A stretch of 22,244 nucleotides of DNA from a virus: the IMG/VR virus record IMGVR_UViG_3300014819_000010, positions 32,981 through 55,224 of that record; one strand, given 5' to 3'. Below, piece after piece: positions 3,479-20,681 of the stretch; within the stretch, counting starts at the first letter, position 1; the number at the start of each line of letters is the position of its first letter. A program made the translations under genes and the position numbers. A model generated the notes under the pieces. It saw nothing but the letters and a program-made list of their open reading frames with translations. It searched no databases and had not been told where the DNA came from.

Positions 3479-4405
3479 ATGCTAGGTTTGTGTTGCCAAT
3501 TCATCGAGCCGGTTCGTAAGCGCACCGGAAACGTTGTTTATAAGAATATCATTGAGGAAAAGACCTTGCAGCTAGGTGCATTCAAAGCTGGCAAGTATCC
3601 CCTTTCTCGTATTCGTTCTACATATCATCATAACGTTGATCAACATATTAAGCTTGTTCCTCGGCTAATAGAACTTGATATACGTTCATTTCGTCTGTCG
3701 TCGTGTTTGTTTCCATTGTGGGATCAAAATCATCATATGATTAAGGATGATGTTCTGCTAGCCACCAAACTAGCAAAATTGGGTAAACTTTTTATTGACA
3801 ATGGTATTCGTGTCACAACGCATCCCGGTCAGTTTACAGTGCTATCAAGTGATAGCACAAACGTCGTTAAAAATAGTATTATTGAACTTGAATATCATGC
3901 ATGGGTTTTTGATGCAATGGGTTTGCCCCTATCAAGCTATGCAGCTATCAATATTCATGGTGGCAAAGCTAATCGTTCAACTAATATCGTTAATGTTATT
4001 CGCTCTCTTCCTGATAATATTCGTACCCGTCTTACTCTAGAAAATGACGAAAAATGTTATAATGTCGATCAACTATTGGACATATATGATCGATGTACAG
4101 TACCGATAGTATTTGATAGTCATCATTTTACTTTTAATACCGGTAACATGTCGTTTGCTCAAGCTTTTGATGATACTCGTTCTACTTGGGGTAATATCAA
4201 GCCACTACAACATATTAGTAATACAGAGCCCGGTCATGAAAATGGTTCATTCAATGCAAGACGTGCTCATTCTCAGTATATTCATCATATTCCTGATATG
4301 CAACTAGAGGCTATGCGTGATGATATCATCGATGTAGATGTTGAAGCTAAACACAAGAACCTAGCCTTGTTAGATATTCGTAAAAAGTTCAATATTTCTC
4401 GCTAA
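3479..4405 (+). CDS. uvsE: UV-damage endonuclease (UvsE/UVDE family)
   Basis: UVDE enzymes are metal-dependent TIM-barrel endonucleases that nick DNA 5' to UV photoproducts and some abasic sites, starting photolyase-independent repair. The 308-residue product has the normal bacterial length and ordered motifs: GLCCQF at the start, FRLSSCLFP (71-79), THPGQFTVLSS (114-124), INIHGGK (158-163), LTLENDE (185-191) and VPIVFDSHH (208-216). The likely metal ligands are His115, His140, His160, Glu188 and the Asp/His group at 213-216. The gene stands alone, between its own weak promoter and a terminator. It may protect virion or intracellular phage DNA in sunlit settings; that role is inference. Confidence 0.95.
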   Translation: MLGLCCQFIEPVRKRTGNVVYKNIIEEKTLQLGAFKAGKYPLSRIRSTYHHNVDQHIKLVPRLIELDIRSFRLSSCLFPLWDQNHHMIKDDVLLATKLAKLGKLFIDNGIRVTTHPGQFTVLSSDSTNVVKNSIIELEYHAWVFDAMGLPLSSYAAINIHGGKANRSTNIVNVIRSLPDNIRTRLTLENDEKCYNVDQLLDIYDRCTVPIVFDSHHFTFNTGNMSFAQAFDDTRSTWGNIKPLQHISNTEPGHENGSFNARRAHSQYIHHIPDMQLEAMRDDIIDVDVEAKHKNLALLDIRKKFNISR

Positions 4406-11219: not shown

Positions 11220-12116
11220 ATGATGAAGAGATCGCTTGTATTGTCTGGTGGAGGAAGTCGAGGAAGTTATCAAGTTGGTGCAATACAGGCATTATTAGAG
11301 GGTGGCAGAACATGGAATAGTATTCATGGTATATCTGTTGGTACTCTTAATGGATCTTGGTTAGCTATGCATTCACAATACGAGCAACCGCAATGTATAC
11401 ATGGATTATTAGATATCTGGAATAATATTAATAATACCGATGATATCTTTACACGTTGGAATCCAATTAAACCGGTTAATTATCTTTATTCAATGTGGAA
11501 GGGATCCTTACACAGTGGTCAACCCTTAGAACGGTTAGTTGATAAATTTTTAGATATATCTAGATTAAAAAATAGCGGTGTTAAATTTACTATAGGTTGC
11601 GTAAATCTAAATTCATCTGAATATGTTGTTTTAGATCAAACTAGCGAAAATATGAAAGCTTTTATATTAGCTAGCAGTCATTTGCCTCTTGTTTTTGAAC
11701 CAATCGATATATATGGAGAACGTTGGGTTGATGGAGGAATTCGACATCAAATACCGATATTGGAAGCACTTAAAGAACGGCCAGATGAAATTGATGTTAT
11801 TCTCACTTCTCCAATTACAACACGTGATCGTATATTGCCTGCTACCAACCTCACTAGCGCCCCCAGAGTGGCTTTAAGAGCTTCTGAAATAATGAGCGAT
11901 CAGATTTATCTTATGGATTGCTACACCGTCCTACGAGCCGCCAGAACGCTAGAAAACGTAAAGATTAATGTATATATACCAAGCATATCCCCAAATCAAA
12001 ACAGCATGGATTTTAATAAAGAAAATATCCAAGCCGGAATAAAGCTTGGATACGATGAAACGCTAGCTAAATTAATGCAAAAGATCGATATCGATGATTC
12101 AGATTTAGATTTTTAA
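11220..12116 (+). CDS. Patatin-like phospholipase
   Basis: GAGGTGATAT precedes two in-frame ATGs (11220 and 11223); either could be used. The product has the patatin oxyanion-hole loop SGGGSRGSYQVG (9-20), nucleophile elbow GISVG (Ser39) and catalytic Asp in VDGGIRHQIP (Asp171), giving the Ser-Asp dyad. Patatins hydrolyse acyl chains from membrane lipids. In a phage this might aid lysis, exit or membrane remodelling; alternatively it may be injected or carried in the virion, as its neighbours suggest. There is no signal peptide, so delivery would rely on the virion or holin. The gene closes the plus-strand operon. Confidence 0.93.
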   Translation: MMKRSLVLSGGGSRGSYQVGAIQALLEGGRTWNSIHGISVGTLNGSWLAMHSQYEQPQCIHGLLDIWNNINNTDDIFTRWNPIKPVNYLYSMWKGSLHSGQPLERLVDKFLDISRLKNSGVKFTIGCVNLNSSEYVVLDQTSENMKAFILASSHLPLVFEPIDIYGERWVDGGIRHQIPILEALKERPDEIDVILTSPITTRDRILPATNLTSAPRVALRASEIMSDQIYLMDCYTVLRAARTLENVKINVYIPSISPNQNSMDFNKENIQAGIKLGYDETLAKLMQKIDIDDSDLDF

Positions 12117-13315: not shown

Positions 13316-13624
13316 TCATCGTCTGCGAAGGGGTTGAACTTTTTGTTTCGCTTTCCAGAGATAACTAGCACAGGTTGCTGGTACTATGAATTCAATTTCT
13401 GGTTTTTCAGTTAAAGAAAAAATCCAAGCTTTATCTTCGCCTCGTGGGCCACCTTCAATGTCCCTAAGATACTGAATAAACGTACCATTTTCAATTCGTG
13501 TAACAGCATGGGAGGATCCTACTACCGGCATACAAGGCAAATAACGTACACCGGGAATATCATGCACGTTAACTTGACGTTGTTCCTTCCAGTAAAAGAT
13601 CGGCAATTCTGTTTGTTTAGCCAT
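13316..13624 (-). CDS. Hypothetical protein (102 aa)
   Basis: The ATG is directly downstream of a near-consensus promoter with only five bases between -10 box and start, and no Shine-Dalgarno is present, so a leaderless message is predicted. The product looks beta-rich (LPIFYWKEQRQVNV, RYLPCMPVVG, IEFIVPATCASYLW) and ends in a basic KAKQKVQPLRRR tail. No family is recognised. It forms its own unit with a promoter and a terminator. Confidence 0.85.
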   Translation of the reverse strand: MAKQTELPIFYWKEQRQVNVHDIPGVRYLPCMPVVGSSHAVTRIENGTFIQYLRDIEGGPRGEDKAWIFSLTEKPEIEFIVPATCASYLWKAKQKVQPLRRR

Positions 13625-13629
13625 AATTT

Positions 13630-13658
13630 ATTATAACACGTTATAACAATAATATCAA
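13630..13658 (-). promoter_or_regulatory. Near-consensus sigma70 promoter producing a leaderless mRNA
   Basis: On the minus strand TTGATA (13653-13658), a 17-base spacer and TATAAT (13630-13635) stand five bases before the ATG at 13624. The expected start site is the A of ATG. It is the best promoter in the window and lies in a 38-base gap. Confidence 0.82.
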
Positions 13659-13662
13659 GAGA

Positions 13663-14136
13663 TTAAGCTGTTGGTGGAGTGGCAGGAGCAGCCGGTGCTG
13701 GAGGCATAGCTGGTTGAGCGGCAGGAGTGGCGGGCGGGACTGCGGAAGCTTCTGGAGCGGCTTCTTGTTCATTGACATTAATAACGATTTTACCGATTTC
13801 AACGAGAAACGTTTCGATTGCTTGTTTTTGTTCATCGGTTTGTTTTTTGAAGAATGTTACGAGTTGACCATAGACTTCTGGGTCTGTAAATGATCTACCG
13901 CCACGAATAACATTAAGACGTTCAATCATGTCATCAACGGTAAATTCTTTTGGTTGTTCTTCTGGTGCTGATGGTGCAGATACATCAGCAGGAGGAGTCA
14001 TTGGTGCGGGCATACCTGCTGGAGCGGCTGGCGCTTCTTGTTCAGAAAGCAATTGTACAATTGCTTCGTTGATTAAATCATGAAGATATTTTTTTCTACG
14101 AGTTTCGTTTAATTCTTGACGAATTGATGTTGACAT
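13663..14136 (-). CDS. Putative virion protein with Pro/Ala-rich linkers (157 aa)
   Basis: CGAGGT precedes the ATG. The first 32 residues form an amphipathic helix (RRKKYLHDLINEAIVQLLSE) followed by an Ala/Pro-rich linker. A compact helical domain follows at about 65-120 (FTVDDMIERLNVIRGG, VYGQLVTFFKK, IETFLVEIGKIV), and a second long Ala/Pro tail ends the protein. The arrangement of helix, linker, small domain and linker resembles those encoded at 18810-20681. No catalytic residue pattern is visible. Virion association is inference. Confidence 0.88.
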   Translation of the reverse strand: MSTSIRQELNETRRKKYLHDLINEAIVQLLSEQEAPAAPAGMPAPMTPPADVSAPSAPEEQPKEFTVDDMIERLNVIRGGRSFTDPEVYGQLVTFFKKQTDEQKQAIETFLVEIGKIVINVNEQEAAPEASAVPPATPAAQPAMPPAPAAPATPPTA

Positions 14137-14793: not shown

Positions 14794-15110
14794 TTTATTT
14801 CTATTTTCGAAAATATTTCTTCAATATTTAAGACTATTTTATAACATTCTTTAATATGTTGTTTACCATTTTCAGATTGAACTTTGCATGTAACATATGC
14901 AAAGTCTTCATCTTGTTTTTCTTCTAGAAAGATAAAGATATCATGACCATGTTTCATATTCAGTATATCAACAGTTAGATATCCATATTCTTCGGCCAAT
15001 ATTTTTATTGGCCGTCTAAAAACAAAAAGAACCGGACCTACCGCACGGGTAGACCAGTTCTCTGGAAATAATTTATATAGTGGATGATTTAGTAATTCTG
15101 GATCTGGCAT
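14790..15110 (-). CDS. Hypothetical protein (106 aa)
   Basis: A TTG two codons earlier is open, but the ATG at 15110 lies two bases after the upstream stop and is the better start. The product begins MPDPELLNHPLYKLFP and continues with strands (VGPVLFVFRRPIKI, YLTVDILNM, DIFIFLEEK, FAYVTCKVQ) and a final helix (CYKIVLNIEEIFSKI). It is likely a small alpha/beta fold. No family is recognised. Tight spacing with both neighbours indicates one operon with the sigma-like gene upstream. Confidence 0.82.
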   Translation of the reverse strand: MPDPELLNHPLYKLFPENWSTRAVGPVLFVFRRPIKILAEEYGYLTVDILNMKHGHDIFIFLEEKQDEDFAYVTCKVQSENGKQHIKECYKIVLNIEEIFSKIEIK

Positions 15111-15112
15111 AA

Positions 15113-15886
15113 TCAATTCTCATTCTTCCTAGGACGCCCACGCTTCTTACTTGGGTAAAGATGCTTGCTCAACATCGTTTGAAAACTCTTCATTCGATTA
15201 TTCTGCTTAAGGATATCTCCACGAAGATATGCAGAAATTTCTGTTGCATCTTGCTTCATGAGGAACTTAATCATTTCAAGTTCGCCTGTGGTCTTGATAT
15301 CATGCATTTCCAGTGGAGTAATCTGATATGCCTTCTGGATCGCATCTAGAAACATATTAATGTTATTACAGGAGATTAGAAGAGTCGCATATGCATCAGC
15401 GACAACTTGATGAGCGGCGCTAATACGATCCATGGCAGCATCCATGCCATCACGATGGCGACCGGTCATAAGCTGCATCTTGGCAGTTCCAGACGTTTCA
15501 AGCTTAAGTGCCATCATGGCAGTAATACCATGAAGTTCTTGTCCAATCTCTTTAAGAGATACATCGCCGGTATTATAGATTGCTTCCTTCTTGCCCTTTA
15601 CGGGCTTTGTTGGGCTTTCAAAATCGATCTGAGCGAAATCACTCTTAAGGGACTTCTTGATAGCCCAATCATCACATACGTCCGCAGGAGAAAGCGGGAA
15701 ACCACTACGGGGATCGGAAATATATGCCAAAACATTTTCAACAGAAACATTCGGATTATACCATGCGGTATTCTTTCGATTATCGTTGAAATAATAACTC
15801 ATAATCCACTCGCAAAGCTTCGTACGATCTCGAAGGCGAGCGAAAAGAGGATTGACATTATCCGGATTAATCTTCATGTTATTCAT
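15113..15886 (-). CDS. Sigma-region-4-like HTH protein with AT-hook
   Basis: A TTG is open one codon further out, but GGAG six bases before the ATG at 15886 favours that start (257 aa). Residues 108-135 read DVSLKEIGQELHGITAMMAL, which matches the helix-turn-helix of sigma70 region 4 (consensus LxEIGxxLxGIT, contacting the -35 box). The C-terminus, KKRGRPRKN, is an AT-hook that binds the DNA minor groove. No clear region 2 is visible; the N-terminal third (LCEWIMSYYFN) is unfamiliar. It could be a divergent phage sigma or a late-transcription adapter. A strong-looking promoter precedes it. The operon continues with three unknown or virion-like genes. Confidence 0.82.
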   Translation of the reverse strand: MNNMKINPDNVNPLFARLRDRTKLCEWIMSYYFNDNRKNTAWYNPNVSVENVLAYISDPRSGFPLSPADVCDDWAIKKSLKSDFAQIDFESPTKPVKGKKEAIYNTGDVSLKEIGQELHGITAMMALKLETSGTAKMQLMTGRHRDGMDAAMDRISAAHQVVADAYATLLISCNNINMFLDAIQKAYQITPLEMHDIKTTGELEMIKFLMKQDATEISAYLRGDILKQNNRMKSFQTMLSKHLYPSKKRGRPRKNEN

Positions 15887-15968: not shown

Positions 15969-16853
15969 TCAGAAGAATTTGCGTACAAGAGAAGGTCTAC
16001 CGGCAGTTTCTTTTGCTCTTAATGCATCTGTGAAGCGAGCAATAACTGGAAGTTGTGAGCCACGAAGATATAATCTAATAAGTTCTGCTGCTGCTTCTTC
16101 TTCTGCACCTTCTTCAGCCATAGCTTGAAGGTCAACTAATAGTTCAATATCACGTTCTGTTGCTCTTGGCATTTTAAGAACGTCCATTACGAAATCTTCA
16201 ACGCCTTTTTCTGCAAGACGTTCAATAAACTGTTTAGCTGCTGGAACTGCCAAAGCTTTTAGACTTTCTTTTGATTCAAGACCTCCTCTAGATACGGCGG
16301 CTTTCTTAAAACGTTCCATAGCTTTCTTTTCTAGTTCTGCGGCTCTTTGTACAGATACACCAAGTTCTTTAGCAATATCTTCAAGAGATGCTCCACCTGT
16401 CATTCCTTTTGTTTGATATTTCTTACCAGTCTCTTCTTCCTCTACATCAGCTTCTTCTTTTTCTGATGGAGTTTCTTCACTACCAAGAGCTGCTTTTGTT
16501 GCACCAGTATTATTAATAAGATCCTTAAGCTTATTTGGAGTCATGGCAGAATAACCAAGAATTGATTTTCCATTAAGTCCATCAACATAAAATTTATCTA
16601 GAATAGTCTTTAAATCTTCTCTTGAAGTACGACCTTGAAGCATATTAAGATAACGTTTTTGATCTGGAGATATATCGCCTTCAGTTTGACGAGCTAACAT
16701 TTTAAGTACCGCTTCTGCATTCCTTAAATTTGTTGCAGAAATAAGAGCAGCAGCTTGTTCACGACGCTGGCTGCTACGTCCTTGTTGTGCTTTAATTTCT
16801 TCATTTGCAGCCTCTGCAATTAAACTTTTTAATTTTTTCATTGTTATTTTCAT
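15969..16853 (-). CDS. MKIT-type putative virion protein with sigma-like HTH (294 aa)
   Basis: The frame is open from a TTG at 16859, but the ATG at 16853, two bases after the upstream stop, gives the N-terminus MKITMKKLKSLIAEA, an amphipathic helix start that recurs in putative phage virion proteins. An Arg/Ala-rich helical region (about 25-110) and an acidic linker (125-142) follow. Residues 155-185 (ASLEDIAKELGVSVQRAAEL, then EKKAMERFKK) closely resemble sigma70 region 4. The C-terminal helices (FIERLAEKGVEDFV, ELLVDLQAMAEEGA) end in a basic tail (GRPSLVRKFF). No region 2 is seen. The combination suggests a packaged DNA-binding or transcription factor, but either half could mislead. Confidence 0.85.
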   Translation of the reverse strand: MKITMKKLKSLIAEAANEEIKAQQGRSSQRREQAAALISATNLRNAEAVLKMLARQTEGDISPDQKRYLNMLQGRTSREDLKTILDKFYVDGLNGKSILGYSAMTPNKLKDLINNTGATKAALGSEETPSEKEEADVEEEETGKKYQTKGMTGGASLEDIAKELGVSVQRAAELEKKAMERFKKAAVSRGGLESKESLKALAVPAAKQFIERLAEKGVEDFVMDVLKMPRATERDIELLVDLQAMAEEGAEEEAAAELIRLYLRGSQLPVIARFTDALRAKETAGRPSLVRKFF

Positions 16854-16855
16854 GA

Positions 16856-17131
16856 TCAATCTTCAGCTTTCTCTTCAGATGATGGGGGAGGAATTGATGG
16901 GGTACCCGAAGTATTGCCTTTTTCAGCCCATCTACGGCCAAAGTACAAAACCGTCAGTGGTGTTAGATAACTCATTGCTTCTGTGCCGGAAAATTCTCTT
17001 ATTTTCAATCCAAAAGCTTCTTCTACAATCGAAACAAGAAGCCATAAAGTTACCACAGCATATCCTATTACCATCATAGTAAATGAAGCAGATTTTTTTC
17101 CATCACTTTGTTTTAAAAGAGGTACTTGCAT
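16856..17131 (-). CDS. Small membrane protein, holin candidate (91 aa)
   Basis: AAAGGAT precedes the ATG. One clear membrane helix spans residues about 17-38 (FTMMVIGYAVVTLWLLVSIV) and a shorter hydrophobic segment at about 53-65 (AMSYLTPLTVLYFG) leads into RRWAEKG. The C-terminal tail is hydrophilic with Pro/Ser/Glu. Size, two hydrophobic segments and position next to the spanin-like genes suit a holin, which would permeabilise the inner membrane to start lysis. No endolysin is in the window, and other small membrane roles are possible. Confidence 0.8.
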   Translation of the reverse strand: MQVPLLKQSDGKKSASFTMMVIGYAVVTLWLLVSIVEEAFGLKIREFSGTEAMSYLTPLTVLYFGRRWAEKGNTSGTPSIPPPSSEEKAED

Positions 17132-18512: not shown

Positions 18513-18806
18513 TCATTTCTTAGATAATTCGTGAGCTATCATGCGATATAAAGTTTCAGCATCAACGTGTTCTTCTTTGCCCTCCAATATTCTTTGTTTT
18601 TTATATTCAGTAGCTTCTTGTAATATTTCTACCAATCTTTGATCATTAATCGATATTTGTTGAATGACATAACCCATAAATTGATGAGCAGTTAAACCAT
18701 GACGAAATAAGACCTTTTTTAAATTTAGCATTTCTTCCTGAGTAAATTGCAATTCTAATGCTTCTTTCGGAAGAATCTTTTTTGGTCGTCCTGGTCCACG
18801 TTTCAT
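18513..18806 (-). CDS. AT-hook protein (97 aa)
   Basis: The N-terminus MKRGPGRPKK is an AT-hook (GRP core), which binds the minor groove of AT-rich DNA. The remaining 80 residues are helical (QEEMLNLKKVLFRHGLTAHQ, EILQEATEYKKQRI, ETLYRMIAHELSKK) and include LTAHQFMGYVIQ, which resembles a ribbon-helix-helix or small HTH dimer unit. The ribosome site GGAGGAG lies inside the Gly-rich coding end of the upstream virion-like gene. Probable DNA-binding or regulatory protein; it might also coat DNA. Confidence 0.82.
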   Translation of the reverse strand: MKRGPGRPKKILPKEALELQFTQEEMLNLKKVLFRHGLTAHQFMGYVIQQISINDQRLVEILQEATEYKKQRILEGKEEHVDAETLYRMIAHELSKK

Positions 18807-18809
18807 TTT

Positions 18810-19685
18810 TCAATCTCCTCCACCTCCACCAAGCTGTCCTCCTTCGCCACCAGCATTATATGCATATGGAGTTGGGAATTCTCCTCCTCCAGCAGTAGAA
18901 GTGTATTCCGTGTTCGTAGGATGCAATCCATAATTTCGTTCCATAATCTGCAAAAACATTTTAGCAGTTCTTTCATCATAGTTTGTTCGCATATATTCTT
19001 CAACACGATTTAGTATAATTGAACGTGGATTTAGTAATGCATCGTAATTGTTAATTAATCGTGCAATGCTTCTAGTAAAATCATTTAAGTTAATTTTTGG
19101 TGTGTTAACTATCGGTGGTCCTTCTGGTGCAGTACCACCACCTGCATCTCCTGCATCATCTGTATCTCCACCCACATCACCACCCAGATCGGCTGCACCA
19201 GCATCTTCGGCAGGTTCTTCTGGCGGAGTTTCTTGTTCAAAGAGCAAGCTTTTTAGTTTAAGCAATTGCTTTTCTTCTAATGATGTTGGTGTAGATTGTT
19301 GAGCTAATGTTTCGGGGGCTGGAGATGCTGCTGGAGTAGGAGCAGGACCAGGCATACCAGTTTGCGGTATACTTTCACGCTCGTAACGAACGATATAACG
19401 ATCAATTACTTGATCTAGAGAAACGTTTTTTTGTGGAACCGGAGCAAAATCGGCCATTTGTTGTGGATATTGAGCTTGAACTACTTGTTCTTTTAAAACT
19501 AAATCCTTATTGCGAGCAACATATAATAGATTATTAATACGAACATATGAATGTTGTTTGTCAATAAGACGCACGTGCTCATATAGGGTTCCAGCAGGAA
19601 TACTTACAGGACGATTTGAACGTGTGGTATAACCAAGCTTGCCGCCGTGGCGAACCATTAATGCATTTGTTTTTAACTTTTTCAT
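18810..19685 (-). CDS. Putative virion protein with Pro/Gly-rich linkers (291 aa)
   Basis: GAGGATGATAT precedes the ATG. An N-terminal beta-rich domain (about 1-75, YTTRSNRPVSIPAGTLYEHV and HSYVRINNLLYV) is followed by a Pro/Ala linker. Then comes LLKLKSLLFEQETPPEEP, the same amphipathic helix plus LxEQE pattern as the 157-aa protein. A Gly/Asp-rich stretch and a helical C-terminal domain (FTRSIARLINNYDALLNP, MFLQIMERNYGL) follow, ending in Gly repeats. No catalytic motif is visible. Composition and layout suggest a virion component; the exact part is unknown. Confidence 0.87.
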   Translation of the reverse strand: MKKLKTNALMVRHGGKLGYTTRSNRPVSIPAGTLYEHVRLIDKQHSYVRINNLLYVARNKDLVLKEQVVQAQYPQQMADFAPVPQKNVSLDQVIDRYIVRYERESIPQTGMPGPAPTPAASPAPETLAQQSTPTSLEEKQLLKLKSLLFEQETPPEEPAEDAGAADLGGDVGGDTDDAGDAGGGTAPEGPPIVNTPKINLNDFTRSIARLINNYDALLNPRSIILNRVEEYMRTNYDERTAKMFLQIMERNYGLHPTNTEYTSTAGGGEFPTPYAYNAGGEGGQLGGGGGD

Positions 19686-19688
19686 ATA

Positions 19689-20681
19689 TCATCCTCTAGA
19701 TTGGACGCCAGGTGCTTGTGTTGCTGGAGCGGCGGGCGCCGATGGTGAAAGTGGAGTTGTTGCTTGATTACCTAAACCGGTTGTTAATGGTTTTTGTGCC
19801 GGAGGTTGTATTTGCGTAATTGGAACTGTTTCTGCTCTCTCAGCAGCAGAAAGCATTGAATCTGGTTTTGGATTATTCATAGGTTCAATTTTATATATCA
19901 AATCTAGATTACATTTTTCACATACCATCATACGAGCTTCAATAACATCCCAATTTAATTCTTTCATCATCGAAAAAAGATAAGCTTTTTTATCTGTCAT
20001 ATAATCTTTAAAATAAGCATGTTCCCACATGTCCATAACAATAACCGGTATACAGCCAACAGGAATGTTAGTGTCATGACTATCAATTGATACGTTCATA
20101 AAAACATTACGATAGGGTTCCCATACAGTTAATCCCCAACCATTACGAGAAGCCATACATGCTGCCATGAAATCTTCTTGCCAAGCTTCAAATGTACCCC
20201 AATCTCTTGATAGTCTCATGTATGGTAAACTATCAACTCGAATCTCACTATCGACATCTGAAATATTTGCGAAATATAATTCATGAAGTTTTACTCCATT
20301 GAAATTATATGTCTCATCTACTTTAAGAGAGCGATATGAACTGGCACTGCTTTTAACTTCATTTTTGTCCGCTGCAACAAGACCACTTGCAACTTTATTA
20401 AATGCTTCTACATATCCCTTATAAAGTTTATCATGAGAACTTTTTGTTCCATCAGATAATTTTTCAGTTTTCATTAAATGGGACTTGGGTATAAGTGTAA
20501 ACCCTTCTTTAAGGGTATTGATCAATTTTTTTGCCGCATTTGACAATATTGTAACCGGCTGTACAGCTTCTGATATTTTTTTAGGTTTCTCTGGTGCTAA
20601 TCCTTTGGCTTCAAGCGTATTCTTTACTGCTCTCTTCACTTCATCATCTAAAAGGGATTGCAATTCTTTTGTTAATTTCAT
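19689..20681 (-). CDS. Fe/Mn superoxide-dismutase-fold protein with extra termini (330 aa)
   Basis: Residues about 60-250 follow the Fe/Mn-SOD pattern. DMWEHAYFKDY (217-227) is the family signature with ligands Asp217 and His221; GTFEAWQEDF (162-171), GWGLTVW (181-187) and INW-like ELNWDV (241-246) also fit; KLHELYFANI gives a further ligand, His133. The first helical ligand seems lost: in SSHDKLYKGYVEAFN the usual His position aligns to Ser82, with His one residue later. Extras are an MKLTKELQSLLDDEVKRAVK helix, a VCEKC pair (253-257) and a Pro/Ala-rich tail. SODs convert superoxide to peroxide and oxygen; here a non-enzymatic or virion-bound role is equally likely. The neighbouring genes are virion-like. 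Confidence 0.88.
   Translation of the reverse strand: MKLTKELQSLLDDEVKRAVKNTLEAKGLAPEKPKKISEAVQPVTILSNAAKKLINTLKEGFTLIPKSHLMKTEKLSDGTKSSHDKLYKGYVEAFNKVASGLVAADKNEVKSSASSYRSLKVDETYNFNGVKLHELYFANISDVDSEIRVDSLPYMRLSRDWGTFEAWQEDFMAACMASRNGWGLTVWEPYRNVFMNVSIDSHDTNIPVGCIPVIVMDMWEHAYFKDYMTDKKAYLFSMMKELNWDVIEARMMVCEKCNLDLIYKIEPMNNPKPDSMLSAAERAETVPITQIQPPAQKPLTTGLGNQATTPLSPSAPAAPATQAPGVQSRG

Follow-up and report, generated by a model that had tools for sequence, protein, structure and literature searches.

The prohead protease gp21 of bacteriophage T4 cleaves at the consensus [LI]xE, and the cut site of the T4 capsid protein gp23 is FLTE/A (a slash marks the cut). The T4 internal proteins IPI–III and Alt are a highly variable cargo with a gp21-cut capsid-targeting sequence (CTS), a propeptide whose last residues are [LI]xE and which is followed by a small residue. 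The N-terminal propeptides of T4 act as capsid-targeting sequences that bring foreign enzymes into the head and onward into the cell (PMC9026906, PMC3012670), and cleavage after Glu is also used by giant phages (PMC10052503).

Virus particles carrying a superoxide dismutase (SOD) have been described. Chlorovirus PBCV-1 encodes the Cu/Zn-SOD A245R and packages it in active form in the virion (PMC7019647). The vaccinia virion carries the non-functional SOD-like protein A45R which, like the leporipoxvirus SOD homologues, provides a precedent for a packaged pseudo-SOD (PMC9282662). Fe/Mn-type SODs are annotated in a few phages, among them PA5oct (EST35_0261) and Vibrio phage 2.275.O, both of which are T4-like, of jumbo size and equipped with gp21 and gp23. 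Searches of the open-access literature yielded no description of a phage head protein that is an Fe/Mn-SOD, nor of repeated erosion of such an enzyme.

A stretch of viral DNA of 22,244 nucleotides (the window; positions 32,981 to 55,224 of IMG/VR record IMGVR_UViG_3300014819_000010) was analysed for its relation to these systems. One of its genes is likely, in our judgement, to encode the precursor of a phage-head-internal SOD with a CTS-like extension, a gp21-type cut between Glu59 and Gly60, a complete metal site and an additional, non-catalytic function.

Domain organization of the window protein

The minus strand of the window contains an uninterrupted ORF of 330 codons from 20681 to 19689 (stop codon 19691–19689). 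A plus-strand reading of the same interval was rejected, as its frames are full of stops. The 330-residue precursor (19689–20681; all coordinates of the gene are on the minus strand) comprises a propeptide, an SOD domain and a Pro/Ala-rich tail. Residues 1–59 (20505–20681) form an N-terminal extension that lies outside the SOD fold in the structural match, has modelled helices at residues 5–25 and 48–56 (AlphaFold2) and is predicted to be a capsid-targeting propeptide. Residues 60–256 (19914–20504) are the Fe/Mn-SOD domain, as delimited by the model and its match to the Aquifex pyrophilus SOD (1coj), and residues 257–330 (19692–19913) are the tail, modelled with low confidence. Domain and tail together make up the predicted mature protein.

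An earlier sequence-only reading had recognized Fe/Mn-SOD ancestry, and this was confirmed. Pfam Sod_Fe_C scored 70.8 bits on the middle of the ORF, where 20.9 is the cut-off (E 1.1e-19), HMMER matched the protein to 1coj with E 1.4e-28, and the DMWEHAYFKDY signature, His133, Asp217 and His221 are all present. The AlphaFold2 model, for which sequences from the window and related contigs alone served as input, had a pLDDT of about 92–98 across most of residues 61–250, with about 97 for the SOD domain. Its best structural match was also 1coj (Z 26.2, rmsd 1.6 Å, 204 residues aligned), with residues 60–265 of the model aligned to residues 2–212 of the chain; Foldseek also supported the SOD domain. 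By Pfam and structural match together, the Fe/Mn-SOD fold extends over the full domain. No PHROGs family matched the window protein. The protein shares with 1coj the fold, 31 % identity, the four metal ligands, a C-terminal water-coordinating His (HCterm) and the absence of the last His of HxxxHH. The phage family differs from 1coj in having a propeptide of 22–67 residues with a protease-type site, members with an eroded metal site, a first helix that is one residue shorter (shared with many cellular relatives) and, in the clade of the window protein, the Pro/Ala tail.

A search for the same fusion in related phages, as proposed in the sequence-only reading, was successful: extension and SOD domain occur together in 109 distinct viral members, window included, and this set is the family sample used below; an ORF from L132 was left out because its frame was wrong. 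Among 50,697 phage records, no isolated phage with a protein of this family was found. The window protein belongs to the group with an intact metal site and falls inside a clade of six with a long Pro/Ala tail. Both the amphipathic N-terminus and the Pro/Ala tail that had been pointed out earlier are present, although the long tail (72–81 residues after Arg250) is limited to these 6 of the 109 members and the MKLT start is not what the relatives share. A CxxC pair, also pointed out, is confined to the window protein and L002, a near-copy of it (2 of 109), and for that reason carries no weight; a metal or redox site at this pair was rejected on the same count.

Metal ligands and metal preference

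The alignment gives three His and one Asp as ligands: His83 (20433–20435), His133 (20283–20285; His81 of E. coli SodA), Asp217 (20031–20033; Asp167) and His221 (20019–20021; His171). The last three were assigned by alignment and conservation. The gateway residue Tyr34 corresponds to Tyr90 (20412–20414) and is kept in 84 of 90 intact members.

The assignment of His83 bears on the proposal, made in the sequence-only reading, that Ser82 replaces the first His ligand and that the protein has altered metal use or is a dead enzyme. An ungapped alignment does set Ser82 opposite His26, which provides the first His ligand in enzymes of the E. coli type. However, the HMMER alignment to 1coj prefers a one-residue gap that pairs His83 with the canonical His. 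None of the 109 members has His at residue 82 (Ala 66, Ser 22, Asn 15, others 6), while every one of the 90 members with the other three ligands has His83. Retention of His83 and His133 is coupled, with both present in 91 members, His83 only in 1, His133 only in 0 and neither in 17 (Fisher P=5e-19, a value that is too strong since the sequences share kinship). There is also cellular precedent. In 62 of the 76 resolvable nearest cellular SODs from a genome collection, the motif is H-x6-Y (HxxLYxGY), the same one-residue-shorter spacing as in the window protein, while the H-x7-Y form is kept in Aquifex, some deltaproteobacterial copies and PA5oct. The shorter first-ligand spacing is common in cellular SODs and is no phage invention. 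Since His83 is invariant in intact members and is lost along with the other ligands, it probably behaves as the first metal ligand, equivalent to His26 of E. coli SodA once a deletion of one residue is allowed for. The apparent replacement by Ser82 reads as an artefact of ungapped alignment, and replacement itself, with the altered or dead site that it would bring, is very improbable for the window protein. At the level of sequence, His83 completes the four-ligand site, the outcome that the earlier reading itself had named as contrary to its proposal. Because this site is complete, the window protein should dismutate superoxide, and the window copy is predicted to be active.

In a survey of these enzymes (PMC10172142), HCterm and Val at XD-2, two residues before the Asp ligand, both accompany Fe preference, and most SodFM4 enzymes have a C-terminal His but no longer the final His of HxxxHH. 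The window protein has HCterm at His202 (20076–20078; kept in 89 of 90 intact members), Val at XD-2 (Val215; 86 of 90) and the string H83-D-K-L-Y, without the last His, and 1coj is its best match in both sequence and structure. These residues indicate that it is probably a SodFM4-like, Fe-using enzyme.

Repeated loss of the metal site

The metal site is broken in 19 of the 109 collected members, a proportion that is no population estimate, as one scan used eroded sequences as seeds. Seventeen of the 19 lack His83, His133 and His221 together, and these sequences also show decay of Tyr34, Trp169 and the water-coordinating His202. The idea of a dead scaffold, which was not supported for the window protein, fits these members. 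When the ligand columns were left out of the tree, parsimony gave five independent losses, with at least three forced by starred branches. Two apparent intermediates of site decay (L158, H/N/D/N; L161, H/H/D/T) grouped together on the tree and are useful for ordering the ligand losses.

The eroded members are not decaying pseudogenes and are under purifying selection. They have uninterrupted ORFs and an unchanged gene order, and their pN of 0.06–0.19 contrasts with a pS of 0.76–0.92 (only this contrast is given, and no dN/dS, because synonymous sites are saturated). Their Pfam Sod_Fe_C scores are 45–54 bits, the model of the eroded member L020 retains the SOD fold (Z 25.6 to 1coj), and the cleavage motif described below is kept in 19 of 19. 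The persistence of fold, motif and purifying selection indicates that the SOD gene has a role that outlasts catalysis.

These losses of the whole site on several branches, under strong purifying selection and with the fold kept, could also be explained by a purely structural virion protein, part of the head core or a decoration, for which the SOD fold would serve as a scaffold and catalysis would not matter even in members that keep the ligands. SOD-fold subunits do occur in other assemblies, and plastid RNA polymerase chains were among the matches. However, the 90 intact members show no variation in the four ligands and hardly any in His202 and Trp219, which requires selection on the metal site and makes a structural role by itself improbable. 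So strongly constrained a site indicates that these 90 members depend on catalysis, or on metal binding at the least.

A cleavage-type site ahead of the SOD domain

Residues 57–60 of the window protein (L-K-E/G; 20502–20513) form a predicted prohead-protease site with Glu59 at P1, as judged from conservation across the 109 members and from the start of the domain. Directly ahead of the SOD domain, P1 is Glu in 109 of 109 members, P3 is L/I/V/M in 108 and P1' is a small residue in all (Ala 67, Ser 35, Gly 5, Asn 2). The extension upstream of the motif is variable in sequence and rich in Lys, Leu, Glu and Ile. The structural match to solved SODs starts right after the motif Glu, at residue 60 in the window protein and at residue 29, after Glu28, in the eroded L020. 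The candidate site thus has the form of a T4 gp21 prohead-protease site, and its position ahead of the mature domain is that of [LI]xE in T4-type capsid-targeted proteins. The family differs from the T4 internal proteins in that its cargo is a folded SOD, its propeptide is longer and its packaging is proposed from these features.

An [LIVM]xE motif is no proof by itself, because some enzymes keep one inside their core, as at residue 89 of thymidine kinase and residue 87 of the DHH protein. The density of [LI]xE near N-termini is raised about 1.4–1.7-fold genome-wide, which is too blunt a measure to serve as proof.

The SOD of PA5oct shares the SodFM domain with the window family and begins with MNDSIKKYISIAE/AASS, a CTS-like N-terminus (IAE/AA); that of Vibrio phage 2.275.O is without one. 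These PA5oct-type SODs differ from the window family in their low identity (about 22 %), canonical His26 spacing and gene neighbourhood. The PA5oct record bears an ESI-MS/MS flag which is only suggestive, because the same flag marks enzymes such as thymidylate synthase and FtsH and is not virion-specific.

Protease, capsid and gene neighbourhood

A gp21-type protease (PF03420) was found in all 19 searched relative contigs of at least 160 kb and in 2 of 4 contigs of 113–147 kb. The gp23-type capsid proteins of 22 phages with these SODs or their kin have L-x-E followed by A/S/Q/T/V at the place of the T4 gp23 cut, where x is R or K with a single exception. Profile searches of the window's own 55-kb contig and those of its nearest relatives, all fragments, did not find gp21 or gp23, and both were also absent from the closest long relative contig (L007, 128,872 bases); fragment status may perhaps explain their absence from window-type contigs. 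On the contig of L159 (G028), positions 41105–45647 hold a tandem pair of gp23-type capsid genes with open frames of 833 and 695 aa.

The SOD gene lies outside the capsid module. In the window it is followed by a gene for a Pro/Ala/Gly/Asp-rich protein of 291 aa (18810–19685, minus strand), whose near-copy in L002 belongs to the +1 family, and by one for a small protein of 97 aa at +2 (18513–18806, minus strand), whose family occurs in 76 loci and at +2 in 73. Gene content around SOD is conserved. The acidic +1 family adjoins SOD in 92 of 108 loci and the −1 family in 91 of 108, and small coiled-coil, membrane and lipoprotein genes form a run after the SOD neighbourhood across the 108 loci. 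A conserved N-terminal [LIVM]xE was found in 96 % of the −2 family, 80 % of −1, 97 % of +1 and 72 % of a family at about +4 to +8, compared with no more than 24 % in a comparison set of two enzyme families from the neighbourhood.

Further N-termini of this kind were observed. In the window, a neighbour at 15969–16859 (minus strand) has an IAE/A-like N-terminal site (MKITMKKLKSLIAEAANEE...), and another at 13663–14136 (minus strand) has an LLSE/Q-like site (...INEAIVQLLSEQEAP...) together with a Pro/Ala-rich tail. On the window's contig (L041), small proteins at 13413–13790 and 14989–15333 start with MKITVKQLKQLIREQ and MKITIGQLKQLIREQ, CTS-like N-termini ending in LIRE/Q, and G008 has similar starts (MKITKRHLRKIIKE/A). 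To judge from these starts, the small proteins of L041 and G008 may be further head-targeted proteins.

In relatives, SOD is also found near genes of nucleotide metabolism (thymidine kinase, dCMP deaminase, DHH phosphoesterase and DnaE). The family of DnaE upstream of SOD (38 sequences) includes several fragments with intein-like ends (TYDLEV...HQ.YL..G.L.SNSHA). Such a neighbourhood, together with a metal site that is intact in most members, would suit an ordinary auxiliary SOD acting in the cytoplasm of the infected cell, with the extension serving for membrane or partner binding or the like. This would leave unexplained why an invariant Glu, with Leu/Ile/Val at P3 and Ala/Ser at P1', stands at the domain boundary, and why the same motif is found on gp23, on the neighbours and in catalytically dead members, and we regard a cytoplasmic role as unlikely. 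The suggestion in the sequence-only reading that the SOD is a particle component is supported, short of proof, by the invariant site at the domain start, the gp21 and gp23 of relatives and the N-termini of neighbours. A large uncultured group of giant phages appears to carry an Fe/Mn SOD that is tagged, packaged into the head and trimmed there.

Proposed pathway and implications

For this packaged SOD we infer the following course. The protein would be translated as a precursor, and residues 1–59 would act like a T4 capsid-targeting sequence to take it into the prohead core. During head maturation a gp21-type prohead protease would cut after Glu59 (TLKE/GF), leaving a mature SodFM4-like SOD of residues 60–330 inside the filled capsid beside the DNA, to be ejected along with it. 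Removal of superoxide, probably with iron, might guard the packaged DNA or the freshly infected cell. Because relatives have repeatedly lost the metal site and yet keep the fold and the cleavage site, a second, non-catalytic role of the packaged fold is proposed, either as a head core component or as a binder of a host or phage partner. A broader version is put forward only tentatively, as we would give it slightly less than an even chance. In it, a wide clade of uncultured jumbo phages related to T4 would use the SOD fold as a standard head-internal and probably ejected protein whose main job is non-catalytic; enzyme activity would be optional, lost several times while fold, packaging and cleavage persist, and intact copies would do both jobs.

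If the proposal holds, these phages load a detoxifying enzyme into the head by the tag-and-cut route that T4 uses for internal proteins, and they would make it possible to test directly whether superoxide matters when a cell is infected or while virions are stored. The larger finding is a widespread, probably head-packaged SOD lineage that has repeatedly been converted to pseudo-enzymes. A syntenic gene that has turned several times from enzyme into pseudo-enzyme would be a natural experiment, in which comparison of intact and eroded members may reveal the second function. Chloroviruses, with an active SOD in the particle, and poxviruses, with a dead one, would offer a parallel in an unrelated fold. 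A245R has that Cu/Zn fold, belongs to a eukaryotic virus and has no described protease propeptide; A45R and the leporipoxvirus homologues likewise have the Cu/Zn fold, and the resemblance is convergent, not homologous.

Other genes in the window

Three plus-strand regions of the window were also noted. Positions 28–1089 encode the C-terminal part of an intein (Intein_splicing, with LAGLIDADG traces) and, after it, the last part of an actin homologue of the Volactin type (PF25216, E 3e-30), and by these matches the region is identified as an intein-interrupted actin-like phage gene. By inspection, the product of 11220–12116 has the look of a patatin-type phospholipase, with the motifs GGGSRGSYQVG ... 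GISVGTLNG, and that of 3479–4405 resembles a UV-damage endonuclease (UvdE).
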